Shown in pieces: positions 7,137-60,703 of a stretch of 64,000 nucleotides of DNA. The position numbers were made by a program, and so were the translations under genes. Below the pieces are notes generated by a model. It ran no database searches, was not told the origin of the DNA, and saw nothing but the letters and a program-made list of their open reading frames with translations. How positions within the stretch are numbered: position 1 is the first letter of the stretch; each line of letters opens with the position of its first letter. This DNA comes from Streptomyces sp. 1331.2 (GTDB lineage: Bacteria; Actinomycetota; Actinomycetes; Streptomycetales; Streptomycetaceae). The stretch is from contig NZ_OBMJ01000001.1 of the NCBI RefSeq assembly GCF_900199205.1, positions 5,325,001 through 5,389,000 on the forward strand, in the 5' to 3' direction.

Positions 7137-7697
7137 CTAGCCCAGGTCGGTGGTGCGTGCGGGGGTGTCGGGGCGGCTCTCCTCGATCCGGCGCAGCATC
7201 CGGGCCAGCAGGCCGGAGAGTGCGGTGCGCTCCTCGCCGGTGATGTCCTGGAGCAGCCCCTCCTCGAAGACGGCCGCCATCCGCATCGATTCGAGCCACT
7301 TGTCGCGGCCGGTCTCGGTCAGCTCGATGATCACCCGCACCCGGTTGGACTCGTCCCGATCCCGGGTGACGAGGCCGTCGGCCACCATCCGGTCGATCCG
7401 GTGCGTCATCGCCGCCGGGGTGAGCCCGAGCCGCTTGGCCAGCTCGCCCGGCCCCAGCCGGTAGGGGCTGCCGGCGACCACCAGGGCCTTGAGCACCTCC
7501 CACTCGGCGGAGGTGATTCCGAGCACAGTCAGCTGCCGGTCGTACGCCACGCCCATCCGTCGGGAGACCCGGTTGAGGGTCTGCACGATGGTCTCCACCT
7601 GGGGGTCCACGGTGGGGAATTCCCGCTGGTAGAGGGCCACCTGCTCGGCGATGCCGAACTCCAGGGGGGTGGCCGGCACGGGCTTGTCCGTAGTCAT
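7137..7697 (-). CDS. MarR family transcriptional regulator
   Basis: Winged-helix regulator of 186 residues. The N-terminal helix holds LYQREFPTVDPQVETIVQTL. The DNA-binding core is LGITSAEWEVLKALVVAG, PGELAKRLGLTPAAMTHRID and the wing DGLVTRDRDESNRVRVII, all MarR features. ATG 7697 starts the protein; a GTG at 7724 with a purine-rich upstream segment is an alternative. It is divergent from an MFS efflux gene across a 165-base region with tandem 15-bp repeats, the classical MarR-repressor/efflux-pump layout, so control of that pump and of itself is expected. Confidence 0.9.
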   Translation of the reverse strand: MTTDKPVPATPLEFGIAEQVALYQREFPTVDPQVETIVQTLNRVSRRMGVAYDRQLTVLGITSAEWEVLKALVVAGSPYRLGPGELAKRLGLTPAAMTHRIDRMVADGLVTRDRDESNRVRVIIELTETGRDKWLESMRMAAVFEEGLLQDITGEERTALSGLLARMLRRIEESRPDTPARTTDLG

Positions 7698-7783
7698 GCG
7701 GACCAGTGTCGCACGAGGGTGCACGCCTTAAGCCTTTGACTCCGCACTCTTCCGGTGCTAAGACTTTATCTCGTCAAACTTTA

Positions 7784-7843
7784 GCTCTGAAATCTTCTGG
7801 ACTTAAGAGTGTGGGTCTCAAGAGTGTGAGGCTCAAGACTGTC
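7784..7843. repeat. 15-bp tandem repeats in the marR/MFS divergent promoter
   Basis: Three clear units (7799-7813, 7814-7828, 7829-7843) share CTYAAGASTGT, and a more diverged unit precedes them. The segment is unusually AT-rich for this genome and lies directly upstream of the MFS gene. Such iteration is consistent with a multi-site operator for the divergent MarR protein, but this is inferred from position. Confidence 0.6.
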
Positions 7844-7862
7844 CAGTCGAAACCAGGAAGGG

Positions 7863-9176
7863 ATGTGCACGGTGACCGGCACGGTGAAGCAGCAGAGGCA
7901 GCAGCGACGCGGGGCGGGCGGCCCGCTGCGCCGCGTCCAGATCGGCAACGCGCTCAGCGCGTTCGGCAGCGGGTTCACGATGCCGTACATGTTCGTGTAC
8001 GTGGACCAGGTGCGCGGGCTGGGTTCGCTGGCGGCCGGGATGGTCTTCACCGTCTTCGCGCTGGCGGCCCTCGCCGTCCTCCCGTTCACCGGGCGCGGCA
8101 TCGACAGGTACGGCCCCCGCCCGGTGCTGCTGGCCGGCGCGGCGCTCGCCGCCACCGGCGCGTTCGCCTTCGGTCACGCCACCGGCACCCCGGCCCTGCT
8201 GGTCTCCTCCTTCCTGTTCGGTGCGGGTGTCACCACCTGCCAGCCGGCGCTCGCCACGATGATCGTCCGCTGCTCCACGGCGGCGACCCGCTCGCACGCC
8301 TTCGCGCTGCAGTTCACCCTGGTCAACCTGGGCATGGGCATCGGTGCGCTGGTCGGCGGGCAGATCGTGGACGTCTCCGACCCGGCCAGCCTGACCAGGC
8401 TGTTCACCATCGAGGCGGCGACCTTCCTCGGCCTGGCCCTGGTCACCGGCACCGCCCGGATGCCCAAGGTCGTGCTGACCGCCGTCCACGGCAGGAGCGA
8501 CGGCCCGACCGGCCTGCGCGCGCTGGTCGCCGACAAGGCGATGCTGCGGCTCTGCCTGCTCGCCGGGCTGATCTTCTTCACCTGCTACGGCCAGTTCGAG
8601 TCCGGCGTCGCGGCCTTCGCCACCGACACCGTCGGCACCGCCCCCTCCACCCTGGGCTTCGCGATCGGCGCCAACGCGCTCACCATCGTGGTCCTGCAGA
8701 TGTTCATGGTGCGGATCACCGCGCGCCGCCGCCGCACCACCGCGATGGCCGCGGCCGGCCTGGTCTGGCTCGGCGCCTGGGCGATGGCCCTGCTGGCCGG
8801 CCTGATCCGGACCGAGACCATGGCCGCCACGGTCGCCATCGTCTCGATCTACGCCCTGTTCGGCGTCGGCGAGTCGCTGCTCGCCCCCACCATGGGCCCG
8901 ATGGTCGCCGACCTCGCCCCGGCCCGGCTGCTCGGCACCTACAACGCCGGGTACGCCCTGGTGAAGCAGATCGCGATCGCGGTCGGCCCGGCCGTCGGCG
9001 TGCTGCTGGTCGGCTCCGGCACCTGGCCGCTCTACCTGGCGGCGATGGCCGGCTCCACGCTGCTGGTCGTCACCCTGGCGCTGCGGCTGCGCCGGCACCT
9101 CACGCCGGAGCAGGACAACGCCGCACCGGCCGTGGTCCACGCCGTCCCGGTCCGCGAGCTGCAGACCGCCGCGTAG
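7863..9176 (+). CDS. MFS transporter, probable drug efflux
   Basis: Twelve-helix major facilitator of 437 residues. After a basic N-terminus, helix 1 (IGNALSAFGSGFTMPYMFVY) and the loop 2-3 segment GRGIDRYGPRPVLLAG match the MFS motif A of the MDR type. Other helices include TLVNLGMGIGALVGGQIVD. It is likely a proton-coupled exporter of small molecules; substrate unknown. ATG 7863 follows AGGAAGGG closely, and the GTG three codons later is an alternative. Divergent marR and tandem repeats upstream suggest inducible expression. A perfect hairpin terminates the gene. Confidence 0.85.
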   Translation: MCTVTGTVKQQRQQRRGAGGPLRRVQIGNALSAFGSGFTMPYMFVYVDQVRGLGSLAAGMVFTVFALAALAVLPFTGRGIDRYGPRPVLLAGAALAATGAFAFGHATGTPALLVSSFLFGAGVTTCQPALATMIVRCSTAATRSHAFALQFTLVNLGMGIGALVGGQIVDVSDPASLTRLFTIEAATFLGLALVTGTARMPKVVLTAVHGRSDGPTGLRALVADKAMLRLCLLAGLIFFTCYGQFESGVAAFATDTVGTAPSTLGFAIGANALTIVVLQMFMVRITARRRRTTAMAAAGLVWLGAWAMALLAGLIRTETMAATVAIVSIYALFGVGESLLAPTMGPMVADLAPARLLGTYNAGYALVKQIAIAVGPAVGVLLVGSGTWPLYLAAMAGSTLLVVTLALRLRRHLTPEQDNAAPAVVHAVPVRELQTAA

Positions 9177-55839: not shown

Positions 55840-56240
55840 GGAAGAGCCGGCCGGGCGGTCGCGACGGGTCACCAGACCCGCCGAGGAACGTCCGGGCTCC
55901 ACAGAGCAGGGTGGTGGGTAACGCCCACCCGGGGTGACCCGCGGGACAGTGCCACAGAAAACAGACCGCCCACCGCTTTTGGTGGTGGGTAAGGGTGAAA
56001 CGGTGGTGTAAGAGACCACCAGCGACCGGGGTGACCCGGCCGGCTAGGTAAACCCCACCTGGAGCAAGGTCAAGATCGGTGCCTTCGGGCGCCGTGCGCG
56101 AGTGTTCGAGGGCTGCTCGCCCGAGCTCGCGGGTAGACCGCACGAGGCTGTCGGCAACGGCAGCCCTAGATGGATGGCCGTCTCCCCGGGCCGCGCAAGC
56201 GACCCGGGTGACAGAACCCGGCGTATAGGTCGACTCTTCC
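55840..56240 (+). ncRNA. rnpB: RNase P RNA, bacterial type A
   Basis: Catalytic RNA that matures tRNA 5' ends. Conserved blocks are present in order: GAGGAACGTCCGGGCTCCAC (P4/CR-I side), GCAGGGTGGTGGGTAACGCC, GGACAGTGCCACAGAAAACA (CR-II/III), GGGTAAGGGTGAAACGGTG, TAAACCCCACCTGGAGCAAG, and ACAGAACCCGGCGTATAGG (CR-V) near the 3' end. GGAAGAG at the 5' end pairs with CTCTTCC at the 3' end to form P1. Ends are set by this helix and are accurate to a few bases. A strong terminator follows. Confidence 0.97.
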
Positions 56241-56254
56241 GTCGCCGGTTTGAG

Positions 56255-56433: not shown

Positions 56434-57696
56434 CTAGCCGGCCAGCGCCTCCCCGAGCAGCGCGTACGGCCGACCGGTGAGCTGGCGATGCAGCGTCTCG
56501 GTGCGGGATCGGATCAGGCCCTCACGGTAGGCGGCCGGCAGCCGCCCCCACACCCCGGACGCCATCTCGGCAGCACCGGTCGGGTCGCCGTCGACGCGCA
56601 GGCATGCGGCGGTGTCCACTGCCAGCAGGGCTCGCGCCATTACCGACGGAGAGTCCGTGAGCGCCAGGGCGTCCTCCTGCGCCTGGTAGGCGCTGCCCGT
56701 GTCGCCCAGCAGCGTGTACGCCTGCGACAGGTGCACGAGGTGCTTCTGCTCGGGGTAGCCGAACCAGGTGTCGGCCGCCTCGGCGCCGTCCAGGCGCTCC
56801 GCCAGATTCCGCGTGTCGTCCACCGCCCGCCGGGCCCCTTCGAAGTCGCCGGAGGCTGCCAGAGCCCGCGCGGTGACGGCCGCAGCGAGTGCTCCGGCCG
56901 CCGTCGGGCCGCTCCCCGCCTCCCGCCGGGCCTGCTCGGCGATCCGAGCGGCCGCGCCAGGAGCGCCGTAGTTGAGCGGGACCATGGCGTGCCGGGCCAG
57001 CACCCACGCGATCATCCGCTGATCACCGGACTCCCGCGCGGCCTGCTCGGCGGTGGCGAACCAGCGGTAGGCGTCGCGCTGGTCACCGCGGTCGTGCTGG
57101 ACGATGGCCACCAAGCCCGCGATGCCTGCCGCCGTCCGGGCGAGGTCCGCACGGGTGCGCGCCGGGTGAGGTCGGTTCAGCACCTCTCCCAGCAGATCGA
57201 GATCACCCATCATCTCGGCCAGCACCGCCTCCGGTGCCCGGCCACGGTAGCCGCCCCGGTGCCGCTCGAACGCCGACTCCAGGTAGGCGAGATCACCCTC
57301 TCCGGATGGCCTGAGCGCTGCGGTGATCCCCTCGTGGGCCTGTGCGATGCCGGGCAGCGCGACGAGGCCGGTGGCTGCTCCTATCCCTGCTCCGATGAAC
57401 TTCCGCCTGTCCACGCTGTTGCCCTTCGTGCTGCGCTCACTCCGGTACCGCCGGGAGGCGGCGGCGGCCTCGGCCACCTGGCCCACGGTCAGACCGTAGG
57501 CGTCGGCGATCCCCTGGTACGAGGGTTTCTGCGGAATTCGCTTCTCGGTTTCCCACCGCTTGATGGTCTCCCAATCGCACCACTCGCCACTTGCGGCGGC
57601 GACTAACTCTGCCTGCTCGGCGCGTGTCTTCTTCGGGTACGCCTCGCGGATCTCCCGCAGCAGTCGGCCGATCCCGTCCGGGCTGACACCGCTCAC
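56434..57696 (-). CDS. XRE-type helix-turn-helix regulator with TPR-like sensor domain
   Basis: A 420-residue regulator. Residues 1-75 form an XRE-like helix-turn-helix (TRAEQAELVAAASGEWCDWE, IKRWETEKRIPQKPSYQGIA). A short stretch DRRKFIGAGIGAATGLVALP resembles a twin-arginine-like signal but is internal, a feature common in this streptomycete family. Residues about 150-420 are helical repeats (ARTAAGIAGLVAIVQHDRGD, then SQAYTLLGDTGSAYQAQEDA), likely a peptide- or protein-binding TPR array. GTG 57696 follows GAGAGG. It is divergent from the HATPase-radical SAM operon and probably regulates it. Confidence 0.86.
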   Translation of the reverse strand: MSGVSPDGIGRLLREIREAYPKKTRAEQAELVAAASGEWCDWETIKRWETEKRIPQKPSYQGIADAYGLTVGQVAEAAAASRRYRSERSTKGNSVDRRKFIGAGIGAATGLVALPGIAQAHEGITAALRPSGEGDLAYLESAFERHRGGYRGRAPEAVLAEMMGDLDLLGEVLNRPHPARTRADLARTAAGIAGLVAIVQHDRGDQRDAYRWFATAEQAARESGDQRMIAWVLARHAMVPLNYGAPGAAARIAEQARREAGSGPTAAGALAAAVTARALAASGDFEGARRAVDDTRNLAERLDGAEAADTWFGYPEQKHLVHLSQAYTLLGDTGSAYQAQEDALALTDSPSVMARALLAVDTAACLRVDGDPTGAAEMASGVWGRLPAAYREGLIRSRTETLHRQLTGRPYALLGEALAG

Positions 57697-57900
57697 AAGT
57701 GGCCTCTCGATCGAAGCTGACAGCGCATCAATTCTGGCCCCGTTGGCGGACCCCTGCTGGAAAATGCACCCCTTCGTGGCCCCTCTCCTGCGGCATGCCC
57801 GCGCCGTTCAATAACTAACAGCCGCCCGGCGGGAGGAATCACCGATCCCCCTCGGCTCCATGGAGGAGCGCCGGGCGGCCCCTGACCACCGGAGGCCGCC

Positions 57901-58365
57901 GTGACGACGAGGATGACGCTGCTGCGCACGAAGCACGGCCCGACCCAGGCCGGCACCGCCTTGGTGGCCACCGCACTTGACGTGCCCGCCATGCAGCGCC
58001 GCCGCTGCATGCGGCACATGCCCTGCGCCCCCGAGTCGGCGAGGAGTGCCCGACACCTGGTCCAGGAGAAGCTGACCGATTGGGGCCGTCTCGATCTGCT
58101 GGAAGATGCTCGGCTGATCGTCTCGGAACTGGTCGGCAACGCAGCCCGGCATACCGGTTGCACCCGGCTGTGTGTCGCACTCGGCCTGGACGGTGACCGG
58201 CTTCGACTGGCGGTCCGCGATTCGTCACGCACCCTGCCCGCGGTCATCAAGACCGGGGTCACCGAGACGTCCGGGCGCGGCATGGGCCTCGTCGACAGCA
58301 TCGCCAACCGCTGGGGCGTCGACGAAGCCCCGTTCGGCAAATGGGTTTGGGCCGAGATCGGTTGA
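57901..58365 (+). CDS. HATPase_c-type ATP-binding protein (anti-sigma-factor kinase-like)
   Basis: A 154-residue GHKL ATPase of the RsbW-like group so abundant in streptomycetes. The N box is VSELVGNAARHTGC, the G1 box LRLAVRDSSRTLP, and the G2-like GRGMGLVDSIANRWG follows. Asn and Gly residues for ATP binding are intact. Such proteins bind anti-sigma partners or accompany XRE regulators in developmental and RiPP-related loci. GTG 57901 follows GGAGG at five bases. It lies 78 bases upstream of the radical SAM gene in the same direction. Confidence 0.86.
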   Translation: MTTRMTLLRTKHGPTQAGTALVATALDVPAMQRRRCMRHMPCAPESARSARHLVQEKLTDWGRLDLLEDARLIVSELVGNAARHTGCTRLCVALGLDGDRLRLAVRDSSRTLPAVIKTGVTETSGRGMGLVDSIANRWGVDEAPFGKWVWAEIG

Positions 58366-58443
58366 CCCCACCAAACGCACTGCGGCAGGTGGGCCAGCAC
58401 GGCATCACATCGACCGAATACCGCTCAGATAAGGAGGGAACAC

Positions 58444-59562
58444 GTGCATGACCTGATCGCCAGCCCGTTCCTGGACGAATACCTCTTGGTGCGCCCCGGT
58501 GGCCGGGGTGGTCTCCGGCTCCCGCAGGCCGACTACGAGGAGCTGCGCGCCCACAACCCCGCTCAGGCAGCTCCCTCGTGGCTCGCGGACGCCGTGCGCG
58601 CCCAGTGGGCCGACCTGGACGTGACCGGTCGTCCTGCGGGTGACGTCCTGCTGGTCCGGCAGCCCTCCACGTGGGGCTACTCGCGAGCCAGCTGGGAGAT
58701 CAACCTCGGCTGCAACTACACGTGCAAGCACTGCTATCTCGGGCTCAAGGTCAACTCGGGCATGCCGCTCACGGACAAGCTCACCTGCCTGGGCATCATG
58801 GCCGAGGCCGGCGTCCTCTGGCTCCAGATCACCGGGGGCGAGCCCACCGTGGACCGGGACTTCATGCCTTCGTATCGCCGCGCGTTCGAGCTGGGCATGA
58901 TGATCACCGTCTCCACCAACGCCTCGTTGCTGTGGCGGGAGAACCTGCTGGAGATGTTCCGCGAGTGCCCGCCCTACCGGGTCACGGTGTCGATGTACGG
59001 GGCGAACAAGGCCAGCTACGACGAGCTGACCCAGCGGCAGGGCGCCTGGGACCTGTTCATCCAGGGCATGAACGCCGGCCGCCGGGCCAAGCTGCCGCTG
59101 CGGATGAGCATCATCGTCACCGAGGACAACGCCGCCGAGGAACAGGCGATGATCGACCTGTGTGAAGGCTGGGGGCTGGAGTACAACGTCTTCACCAACA
59201 TGACTCCGACGATCTACGGCGGGGCGGAGTCGCTGACCGCGCAGTCCAAGGAGCACCTGCGGATGCGCAAGCCGTTCGGCGGCTGCAACGCCGGACACAC
59301 CTTCTTCCACACCGACCCACACGGGCTGGTGTCCATCTGCAAGATCGGCCGTGACGACCAGATCAGTCTCCCCACCGAGGGGATCAACGGCCTCGCCCGG
59401 CTCGGCGCCATCGCCGACCGCCTCATGCTTCGCACCGGTGGATGCTCCGGCTGCCAGCTCTCCGGCGCGTGCACCGTCTGCCGGCCGCTGGCCAAGCACT
59501 ACCAGGAGGCGAAGGCACCACTCGCAAGTTACTGCCAGCACGGGATCAAGAAAGCAGGGTGA
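58444..59562 (+). CDS. Radical SAM/SPASM peptide-modifying enzyme
   Basis: A 372-residue iron-sulfur enzyme. The 4Fe-4S/SAM motif CNYTCKHC is at residues 90-97, and the SAM-binding GGEP at 131-134. The C-terminal third has a SPASM-like set of Cys: GGCNAGHTFF, VSICKIGRDD, GGCSGCQLSGACTVC and SYCQHG, able to hold one or two auxiliary clusters. Residues 1-70 (FLDEYLLVRPGGRGGLRLPQ) look like a small peptide-recognition domain. GTG 58444 follows AAGGAGGG. The next gene, one base after the stop, encodes a short Cys-containing peptide, so this is most likely its maturase forming a thioether, carbon-carbon or similar crosslink. Confidence 0.9.
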   Translation: MHDLIASPFLDEYLLVRPGGRGGLRLPQADYEELRAHNPAQAAPSWLADAVRAQWADLDVTGRPAGDVLLVRQPSTWGYSRASWEINLGCNYTCKHCYLGLKVNSGMPLTDKLTCLGIMAEAGVLWLQITGGEPTVDRDFMPSYRRAFELGMMITVSTNASLLWRENLLEMFRECPPYRVTVSMYGANKASYDELTQRQGAWDLFIQGMNAGRRAKLPLRMSIIVTEDNAAEEQAMIDLCEGWGLEYNVFTNMTPTIYGGAESLTAQSKEHLRMRKPFGGCNAGHTFFHTDPHGLVSICKIGRDDQISLPTEGINGLARLGAIADRLMLRTGGCSGCQLSGACTVCRPLAKHYQEAKAPLASYCQHGIKKAG

Positions 59563-59563
59563 C

Positions 59564-59761
59564 ATGACCGCTGTAGCTGTCGAACTCTCCCCGAGGCGTC
59601 CGCTCCCGGACGACGGCCCGGCCCAGCGCCTGCCGTACCTCACGCGGCCGATCGCGGCCCCGACCCCGCCCGTCACCGAGATCATCGCCGTCGGCGACCT
59701 GGACGACGTCATGGACAGCGTGAAGTGCTCGTGCAACGCGGGCGACGACAACCCCCACTGA
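59564..59761 (+). CDS. Putative RiPP precursor peptide for the radical SAM enzyme
   Basis: A 65-residue peptide coded directly after the radical SAM gene, with one base between them. The first half is Pro/Arg-rich (SPRRPLPDDGPAQRLPYLTR), then comes PPVTEIIAVGDLDDVMDSV, a helix-forming leader-like part, and the C-terminus KCSCNAGDDNPH with a CxC pair and acidic/amide residues. Two Cys next to the end, with Ser, Asn and Asp as neighbours, fit a target for crosslink formation. The length and position are those of RiPP precursors. I do not recognise the family with certainty. A terminator 34 bases downstream ends the unit. Confidence 0.78.
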   Translation: MTAVAVELSPRRPLPDDGPAQRLPYLTRPIAAPTPPVTEIIAVGDLDDVMDSVKCSCNAGDDNPH

Positions 59762-59794
59762 ACCACCCGCTGATCGCACCTGATCAGTAGTGCG

Positions 59795-59825
59795 CAGGCC
59801 CCGGCGCTCTCCGCGTCGGGGCCTG
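59795..59825 (+). terminator. Hairpin after the peptide gene
   Basis: CAGGCCCCG pairs with CGGGGCCTG around a loop that includes GCG/CGC pairing. It separates the radical SAM/peptide unit from the GNAT gene, which has its own -10-like box at 59846. Confidence 0.7.
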
Positions 59826-59857
59826 AGCCGTGCGGGGCTGGCGAGTAGGGTGCGGGT

Positions 59858-60703
59858 ATGGATCTGCGCTGGGACTTGCTGCGCCCCGTGATGTGCGTCC
59901 CGTATTTTCCGACGCTCGGGCCGCTCCATCCCGAAGCTGTTTCCGCTGAGCTTCTGGCCGAGGTGTTCGCCGTCGCCGGTACCGGAGAATTCCTGCCACA
60001 CGACAAGGACCGGCGGTGGTCCGACCACAAGGACGAGCATGTCCTGCTGGACGCCGTCGTTCAGGACCAGGCCCGCACGCTGATCCCCACCATCACCGGT
60101 CGCGGCATCCTGCGCGTCCATCTCTACGGCGCCCGCGAGCACCGGCAGGAGGCCGAGGAACTGGCCGCCAAGCTCGCCGCCGGGCGCGACGCATCCAAAG
60201 CCCGTGTGGTGTGGTTCCAGGACACCGCCGCCCCAGTGGCCGCCTCTACCCGCGTGCAGCTCCGTACCTTCGACCAGGACGCACCAGCCGTCGAGGGAAT
60301 CGATGCCCTCGACCAACAGCCCGAAGCCATCCGGACCACCTTCCCCGAGTTCGCCGAGAAGCTGGCCGGCGAGGGCTTCGTGTTCCTGCACTCCCGGATC
60401 GACAGCGTCGGCCCCGTGCTGGTCGCCGTCCAGGACGAGCGCGTAGTAGGCGCAATCGGCCCCATGGAGACCATGGCCGACCCCAACGGCAGGCGACGAC
60501 TCCTCCCGCAGTACTTCGGTGTTCTGCCGGAATACCGCAGCCTCGGCCTCGGGCGGCTCCTGTGGCGCGCGGCGATGCACTGGGGCAAGGCGCACGGCGC
60601 CGACTACCAGCTCTTGCAGACAGCTGCCGGGGGCGCATCCGACCGGCTGTGCCAGAGCGAGGGCCTGGCCGACCTCGGATTCGTCTGCACCACCACCGTC
60701 TGA
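59858..60703 (+). CDS. GNAT family acetyltransferase with an extra N-terminal domain
   Basis: A 281-residue protein. Residues about 145-281 form a GNAT fold: LVAVQDERVVGAIGPMETMA, then LLPQYFGVLPEYRSLGLGRL with the acetyl-CoA loop (R-S-L-G-L-G), and WRAAMHWGKAHGADYQLLQT. The first 130 residues (DLLRPVMCVPYFPTLGPLHP, DAVVQDQARTLIPTITGRGI) are not recognised and contain DKDRRWSDHKDEH. It follows the radical SAM-peptide pair, so acetylation of the peptide product, self-resistance, or an independent role are all possible. TAGGGT lies exactly six bases before ATG 59858, suggesting a leaderless mRNA. Confidence 0.85.
   Translation: MDLRWDLLRPVMCVPYFPTLGPLHPEAVSAELLAEVFAVAGTGEFLPHDKDRRWSDHKDEHVLLDAVVQDQARTLIPTITGRGILRVHLYGAREHRQEAEELAAKLAAGRDASKARVVWFQDTAAPVAASTRVQLRTFDQDAPAVEGIDALDQQPEAIRTTFPEFAEKLAGEGFVFLHSRIDSVGPVLVAVQDERVVGAIGPMETMADPNGRRRLLPQYFGVLPEYRSLGLGRLLWRAAMHWGKAHGADYQLLQTAAGGASDRLCQSEGLADLGFVCTTTV

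Follow-up and report, generated by a model that had tools for sequence, protein, structure and literature searches.

The region described here lies in a stretch of 64,000 nucleotides (the window) on the forward strand of Streptomyces sp. 1331.2 (NCBI RefSeq assembly GCF_900199205.1, contig NZ_OBMJ01000001.1, positions 5,325,001 to 5,389,000); coordinates below are counted from its first letter. It carries the gene of a radical S-adenosylmethionine (SAM) enzyme followed by a short open reading frame (ORF). The two very probably form the enzyme-substrate pair of a pathway for a ribosomally synthesized and post-translationally modified peptide (RiPP). The enzyme gene (58444-59562, + strand; GTG start, 372 amino acids) matches PF04055 with 45.9 bits (cut-off 29.5) and codes for the cysteine set of a radical SAM/SPASM protein. 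The precursor peptide gene (59564-59761, + strand), supported by a sequence profile and by its pairing with the enzyme, begins one base past the enzyme stop codon. Its 65 amino acids comprise a variable leader and a conserved tail and end with KCSCNAGDDNPH. The tail, CSCNAGDDNPH (59726-59758, + strand), is the putative core. A third gene (59858-60703, + strand) codes for a 281-residue acetyltransferase of the GNAT (Gcn5-related N-acetyltransferase) fold (PF00583, 30.3 bits, cut-off 20.7, residues 176-250). In the gap between peptide and GNAT, folding z-scores point to a hairpin in the region CAGGCCCCGGCG-CTCTC-CGCGTCGGGGCCTG (59795-59825, + strand), and a scan for TANNNT found the −10-like hexamer TAGGGT (59846-59851, + strand), which ends 6 nucleotides 5′ of the GNAT start codon. 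The genome has a single such enzyme; its three other matches have E values from 8.9e-8 to 2.7e-4.

Relatives were collected by a scan of 84,980 species genomes, 80 of 121 being kept (50-97% identity). The resulting 81 loci (window plus 80 relatives, in stretches of up to 13 kb) are the basis of the counts below, together with samples of 394 genomes from the window's family and 396 from the phylum, and with four alignments (A1-A4) of 37, 36, 28 and 20 rows. The relatives belong to Streptomyces, Kitasatospora, Actinacidiphila, Amycolatopsis, Glycomyces, Catenulispora, Microtetraspora, Actinomadura, Frankia, Nocardiopsis and Catellatospora, with one record named Saccharothrix. In this analysis the enzyme family with its tail peptide was met only in Actinobacteria.

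The association of enzyme and peptide is close. A six-frame search with the tail pattern (CxCx3[D/E][D/S][N/Q]P[H/Y/F], or a one-cysteine form GC..DNP[Y/F]) gave exactly one match in 78 of the 81 loci, each directly 3′ of the enzyme gene; the rest of these loci had no further match. The tail is therefore conserved next to the same enzyme, as the original prediction required of a maturase with its precursor. The pattern missed a locus ending with its contig (L013), one whose peptide region is lost (L016) and one with the tail out of frame (L046); among the 78, the enzyme gene is broken in two (by a stop in L006 and a frame break in L047). The enzyme stop and peptide start overlap as ATGA in 41 of the 78. 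In the 394 family genomes the enzyme profile was found at 96 places in 80 genomes (fragments counted) and the peptide profile at 92 places in 78 genomes; 86 of these 92 lie no more than 400 bases downstream of an enzyme. Peptide homologues without an enzyme thus amount to just six places, five of which adjoin another gene of the system: the GNAT at L093, L094 and L098, and the kinase that replaces it in other loci (see below) at L095 and L096, with an enzyme fragment retained at L095 and L098. The sixth (L097) is a degenerate tail with no system gene nearby. Ten enzyme places had no peptide match, of which G673 and G472 were left out of the reading; divergent tails are present at four (L099, L100, L102, L103), and L101 ends with its contig. 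The tail of L100 reads LGCGNDNPF, and neither GNAT nor kinase occurs within the 3.5 kb read there. In the phylum sample the 7 enzyme places are all paired with the 7 peptide places; every one is in the window's family, and their genomes recur in the family sample.

Many enzyme and peptide copies are broken, among them L006, L016, L046, L047 and a number of fragments; the pathway may often be lost or be costly to carry.

Counted from the C-terminus, the 73 distinct peptides have Pro at position −2 and His (38), Tyr (30) or Phe (5) at −1. Position −3 is N, Q, V or A, position −4 is D in 71 and S in 2, and position −5 is D in 71 and E in 2; S and G were also permitted there by the pattern and were never seen. 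Cysteines are found at −9 and at −11 in 68 peptides each. Conservation of the C-terminal cysteines, on which the original prediction had relied, extends to both residues in 68 of the 73, the other 5 keeping one (GCGDDNPYN), as do four further tails spotted by eye (GCSDDNPYR twice, GCNDDNPYR and GCGNDNPF). In all 68 two-cysteine peptides the Cys at −9 and the Asp (Glu twice) at −5 form a CX3[D/E] motif, which survives changes of this D to E and of the next D to S (L064, L069, L070). Mean pairwise identity in 35 two-cysteine rows is 0.754 for the tail and 0.371 for the leader, where a D-[L/I/M/V]-D motif is loosely kept; the last 11 residues therefore behave like a core and the remainder like a leader.

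The enzyme has the motif CX3CX2C in the form CNYTCKHC (C90, C94, C97) and a SPASM-type set of seven cysteines (C281-x12-G-x4-C299, C334-x2-C337-x5-C343-x2-C346, C364), both recognized in the original prediction. All these residues are present in 36 of 36 rows with the exception of C334 (35 rows), and the three remaining cysteines vary among the aligned rows. The last spacing is x3 in the usual SPASM pattern and x2 in the window enzyme. No NCBIfam family reached its cut-off among the 25 of 41 matches listed. The best is AhbD (67.7 bits, cut-off 500); the known sactipeptide maturase families StsB (43.3 bits, cut-off 625) and SkfB (33.3 bits, cut-off 300) and the MftC family TIGR03962 (48.3 bits, cut-off 265) were likewise not reached. 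Membership in AhbD, NirJ, MoaA or mycofactocin families was rejected, the scores being far under the cut-offs, and within these matches the enzyme stands apart from the characterised non-peptide radical SAM families. The nearest solved structures by sequence profile are BlsE (2.9e-18) and SkfB (6.8e-15). A fold search ranked SkfB (Z 21.5, rmsd (root mean square deviation) 5.2, 300 residues) and SuiB (Z 21.3, rmsd 5.5, 325 residues) at the top. These two alignments begin at enzyme residues 3 and 1, respectively, and most other rows at about residue 76, so that the N-terminus is weakly tested by them. Its predicted strands (residues 4-9, 12-16, 23-25) and helices (28-36, 45-54) would fit a domain resembling a RiPP recognition element (RRE) over about residues 1-60.

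The third gene adjoins the peptide gene in 80 of the 81 loci. It codes for a GNAT in 53 loci and for a kinase of the aminoglycoside phosphotransferase (APH) fold in 28; both are found behind the peptide in L049 (Amycolatopsis, 7380-9076) and neither in L013, at its contig end. The count excludes a weak kinase match of 56 residues in L015. The GNAT acetyl-CoA site is of the R-x-x-G-x-G type, with R227, G230, G232 and R233 invariant in 28 rows, and in the PDB the GNAT profile matches a single sequence, that of a tabtoxin resistance acetyltransferase (E 0.004). The predicted whole fold of the window protein resembles tandem GNATs, the second GNAT-like half being N-terminal, in agreement with the two-domain architecture first proposed. 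In the kinase, H160, D162, N167 and D178 are invariant in 20 rows and are read as probable catalytic residues; PF01636 matches 10 of the 20 rows at E ≤0.01, the first row staying under the gathering score (18.8 vs 23.2). The tail ends with PY in 28 of 28 kinase loci, while the 51 GNAT loci whose tail could be read end with PH (43), PF (5) or PY (3), L049 being counted on both sides. A quick tree of 69 of the 79 enzymes (near-copies dropped) suggests that the type of third gene changed at least three times and the presence or absence of the terminal Tyr at least four times. The Tyr/kinase link does not count as proof, as only two independent pairs lie on supported branches, a number that cannot reach significance.

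A GC-rich hairpin of variable sequence and lacking a T-run separates the peptide from the third gene in 58 of 58 loci looked at (58 of the 80 that have a third gene). Its z-score is −2.2 in the window, with medians of −3.48 in 38 GNAT loci and −3.32 in 20 kinase loci, and it falls below −2 in 32 of the 38 and 18 of the 20, respectively; some loci have weak values (−0.2 in L010, −1.2 in L004). Covariation was discarded as proof of pairing: of 9 predicted pairs, 5 show changes on both sides, yet a rough alignment gives a covariation term of just −0.6. A consensus scan for promoters and terminators gave nothing useful, and the window hairpin is absent from its terminators because it has no T-run. 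The terminator originally placed ahead of the GNAT is thus a strong hairpin without this element, a probable transcript end or processing barrier.

A TANNNT box ends 4-8 bases 5′ of the GNAT start in 48 of 49 loci, mostly 6-7 bases ahead of the start codon, and is kept across genera (200 shuffles gave a mean of 0.8 and a maximum of 4). It is found in 0 of 28 loci before the kinase. A tetramer resembling a ribosome-binding site precedes 1 of 49 GNAT genes and 19 of 28 kinase genes. These scans covered 49 of the 53 GNAT loci (L001, L002, L016 and L022 were left out) and all 28 kinase loci, near-copies counted. A −10 box at such a spacing is the layout of leaderless transcripts in actinobacterial promoters, and we infer from this sequence arrangement that the GNAT message is leaderless and starts from its own promoter. 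With the hairpin and this box in between, peptide and GNAT probably have separate transcripts, and the GNAT thereby stands apart from the biosynthetic pair.

The GNAT also occurs alone. Its profile was found at 51 places in 47 of the 394 family genomes, 32 adjoining a peptide and 19 not. Adjacency was assessed with 36 of the 92 peptide places, those in genomes with a nearby GNAT; the three peptides omitted or distant in genomes with a solitary GNAT (G731, G511, G463) are at least 20 kb off. At the 13 solitary places read of these 19 (L104-L116) no peptide match was found at E ≤0.01, and the −10-like box is kept at 10 of the 13. Remnants of the pair occur at some of them, as an enzyme fragment in L105 and L115 and a tail-like remnant in one frame in L106; the GNAT itself is incomplete in L107, L115 and L116. 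Places L111-L114 form a group in which the stretch read shows no remnant of the pair. The GNAT was originally envisaged as a possible tailoring gene of the pathway; with its own −10-like box and its solitary occurrence, it is probably not a co-transcribed one. Survival of a GNAT by itself, under its own promoter, is easier to reconcile with protection against the product than with a role in biosynthesis.

The genes upstream of the enzyme are those foreseen from the sequence but they are not fixed in the relatives. The divergent gene (56434-57696, − strand) codes for a 420-residue XRE/TPR-type regulator of the NsdA family (NF053720, 136.1 bits, cut-off 75), for which no Pfam match was found. 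It is followed by the gene of a 154-residue HATPase_c protein (57901-58365, + strand; PF13581, 31.7 bits, cut-off 27.4), a possible regulator. Of the 81 loci, 29 carry a HATPase gene like that of the window (as a fragment in two) on the enzyme's strand and no more than 1.4 kb upstream; HATPase_c is matched by 17 of 35 upstream ORFs scanned. Only 4 of the 81 have a regulator of the window's own family. HTH_31 is present in 33 of 44 divergent ORFs of at least 220 amino acids (rough gene calling, 80 loci) and TPR families recur among them, in several unrelated clusters; XRE-type control is common in kind and variable in family. rnpB (55843-56241) is found on the far side of the regulator, a proximity that looks incidental. 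A NUDIX-like gene, so named by sequence reading, lies about 2.4-2.9 kb upstream of the enzyme in L024, L054, L056 and others (cluster c3, 22 loci).

The mechanism that we favour has four steps. The N-terminal domain of the enzyme, predicted to be RRE-like, would bind the leader, and the radical SAM centre with the SPASM clusters would then oxidise the conserved tail. The most likely link would join the thiol of C57 (−9) to the carboxylate-bearing residue D61 (−5), C55 serving for a second link or another role; on the motif conservation, a Cys-to-Asp/Glu thioether is our best guess for the chemistry. The leader would be cut off by a protease encoded outside the locus, because no protease or exporter recurs beside these genes. 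The product would be bioactive, and the GNAT, transcribed separately from its leaderless promoter, or the APH-fold kinase would cap or inactivate it as self-protection. In its main lines (thioether and self-protection) this scheme falls, at best, just short of being probable, and it is less secure for all steps jointly. By analogy with aminoglycosides, a RiPP product guarded by covalent modification, with acetyltransferase and kinase as interchangeable means of self-protection, would be a novelty that we regard as rather unlikely.

PapB and PapA, a system of freyrasin-type ranthipeptides, offer a comparable arrangement: a SPASM radical SAM enzyme acts on a small precursor whose core has CX3[D/E] motifs, forms thioethers and accepts 0-6 spacer residues (PMC9413430). 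PapA has six motifs, unlike the single one per tail found here, and the present system is distinguished by the CxC, the DDNP-aromatic end, the actinobacterial host and the GNAT or kinase; the likeness lies in the motif. SkfB (sporulation killing factor) and SuiB (streptide) are the top structural matches over nearly the whole chain but share 15-16% identity over aligned residues and act on other precursors, and the SkfB profile score is far from its cut-off. The mycofactocin pair MftC/MftA is also actinobacterial and has a near-constant C-terminal core; MftA, like the present tail, has an aromatic last residue. It differs in the low MftC score given above, in having a separate MftB-type gene, absent here, and in lacking the tail Cys and the PYN and PYR variants. 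The streptococcal radical SAM RiPPs under Rgg/SHP control (PMC13361665) also combine a radical SAM enzyme and a tiny peptide beside an XRE/TPR-type regulator, in another phylum and with other cores, whereas the regulators vary here. Self-immunity to microcin C is provided by the acetyltransferase MccE, and antibiotics are modified by aminoglycoside acetyltransferases (AAC) and APH enzymes. In these cases a GNAT or kinase likewise accompanies the operon of a bioactive product, a likeness by analogy alone.

Several observations weigh against the favoured mechanism. For this system neither a product nor a mass shift nor an activity is known. The Pro and the aromatic set at the tail end are imposed by the search pattern, their invariance being partly circular. 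One-cysteine tails read CX1D (the 5 among the 73) or CX2D and not CX3D, and L100 has Asn at −5; the tolerance of PapB for 0-6 spacers (PMC9413430) would mean that the one-cysteine form is no bar to a thioether. In the enzyme, Radical_SAM is the sole Pfam match, without any RRE or PqqD family; besides the weakly tested N-terminal match, confidence in the predicted model is low for the SPASM part. Crude gene clustering found no conserved exporter or protease, unusual for an antibiotic, and the solitary GNATs could act on a substrate unrelated to the peptide.

Other readings share the pair and change its chemistry or the role of its neighbours. The enzyme might perform another SPASM reaction on the tail, either an oxidative decarboxylation (as MftC, AhbD and BlsE), a sactionine or a link at the Pro-aromatic end. 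AhbD and NirJ2 are its nearest profiles, BlsE its nearest solved structure, and these are decarboxylating or propionate-removing enzymes; all 36 of the aligned rows are matched by the MftC profile, the window enzyme far under cut-off. All such matches reflect the radical SAM core shared at about residues 83-260, and tails with a residue after Tyr (PYN, PYR) speak against decarboxylation of a C-terminal aromatic residue; we consider this reading possible though doubtful. The third gene might instead tailor the product of the same pathway, the GNAT acetylating and the kinase phosphorylating the trimmed peptide, most simply at the C-terminal Tyr. Its position beside the peptide, the PY ending of every kinase locus set against the mostly PH endings of GNAT loci and the invariant kinase residues argue for it; dependence of the Tyr/kinase link on descent, and GNATs that stand without a peptide under their own −10-like box, make it unlikely.

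A tail nearly constant across several actinobacterial families would also suit a cofactor or signal RiPP, whose end product would be a small molecule acting inside the cell or a pheromone, with the divergent XRE/TPR regulators as sensors. The prevalence of HTH_31 and TPR families among the divergent ORFs agrees with this, as does the control of streptococcal radical SAM RiPPs by Rgg/SHP regulators of the RRNPP group (PMC13361665). The presence of the system in about one fifth of the family genomes (80 of 394), with many broken copies, the several unrelated clusters of regulators and the lack of a recurrent dedicated user enzyme nearby render it quite improbable. Finally, the small ORF could have arisen by chance or code for a small protein that partners the enzyme. 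The modification lacks direct evidence, but the conservation of the tail, its near-perfect pairing with the enzyme and the overlap or close succession of the two genes make this very improbable; in particular, a chance ORF was rejected because 78 of 81 loci have a single tail match and 86 of the 92 peptide places follow an enzyme. The maturase-plus-precursor core of the original prediction therefore stands after each of the observations that could have undone it, namely unpaired peptides, loss of the C-terminal cysteines and an enzyme of a known non-peptide family.

Within the databases and openly licensed literature searched, the locus looks like an undescribed radical SAM/SPASM RiPP family. 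No paper on the tail strings or on the family was found in the openly licensed PMC literature; subscription genome-mining atlases may list the cluster. New here are GNAT and kinase as alternative third genes, the strong hairpin ahead of them, the −10-like box of the GNAT and the GNATs without a peptide. The family is sharply defined and testable, its enzyme, substrate and tail being known, and the 80 relatives' loci and further genomes provide natural variants with two or one Cys, His or Tyr/Phe ends, and GNAT or kinase. Should the tail give rise to a cofactor or signal, it would join pyrroloquinoline quinone (PQQ) and mycofactocin on a short list. If the product is bioactive, this would be a rare RiPP with modification-based self-protection. 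On the self-protection reading, where a strain lacks the pathway its solitary GNAT would represent resistance, either left behind by neighbours or directed at them.

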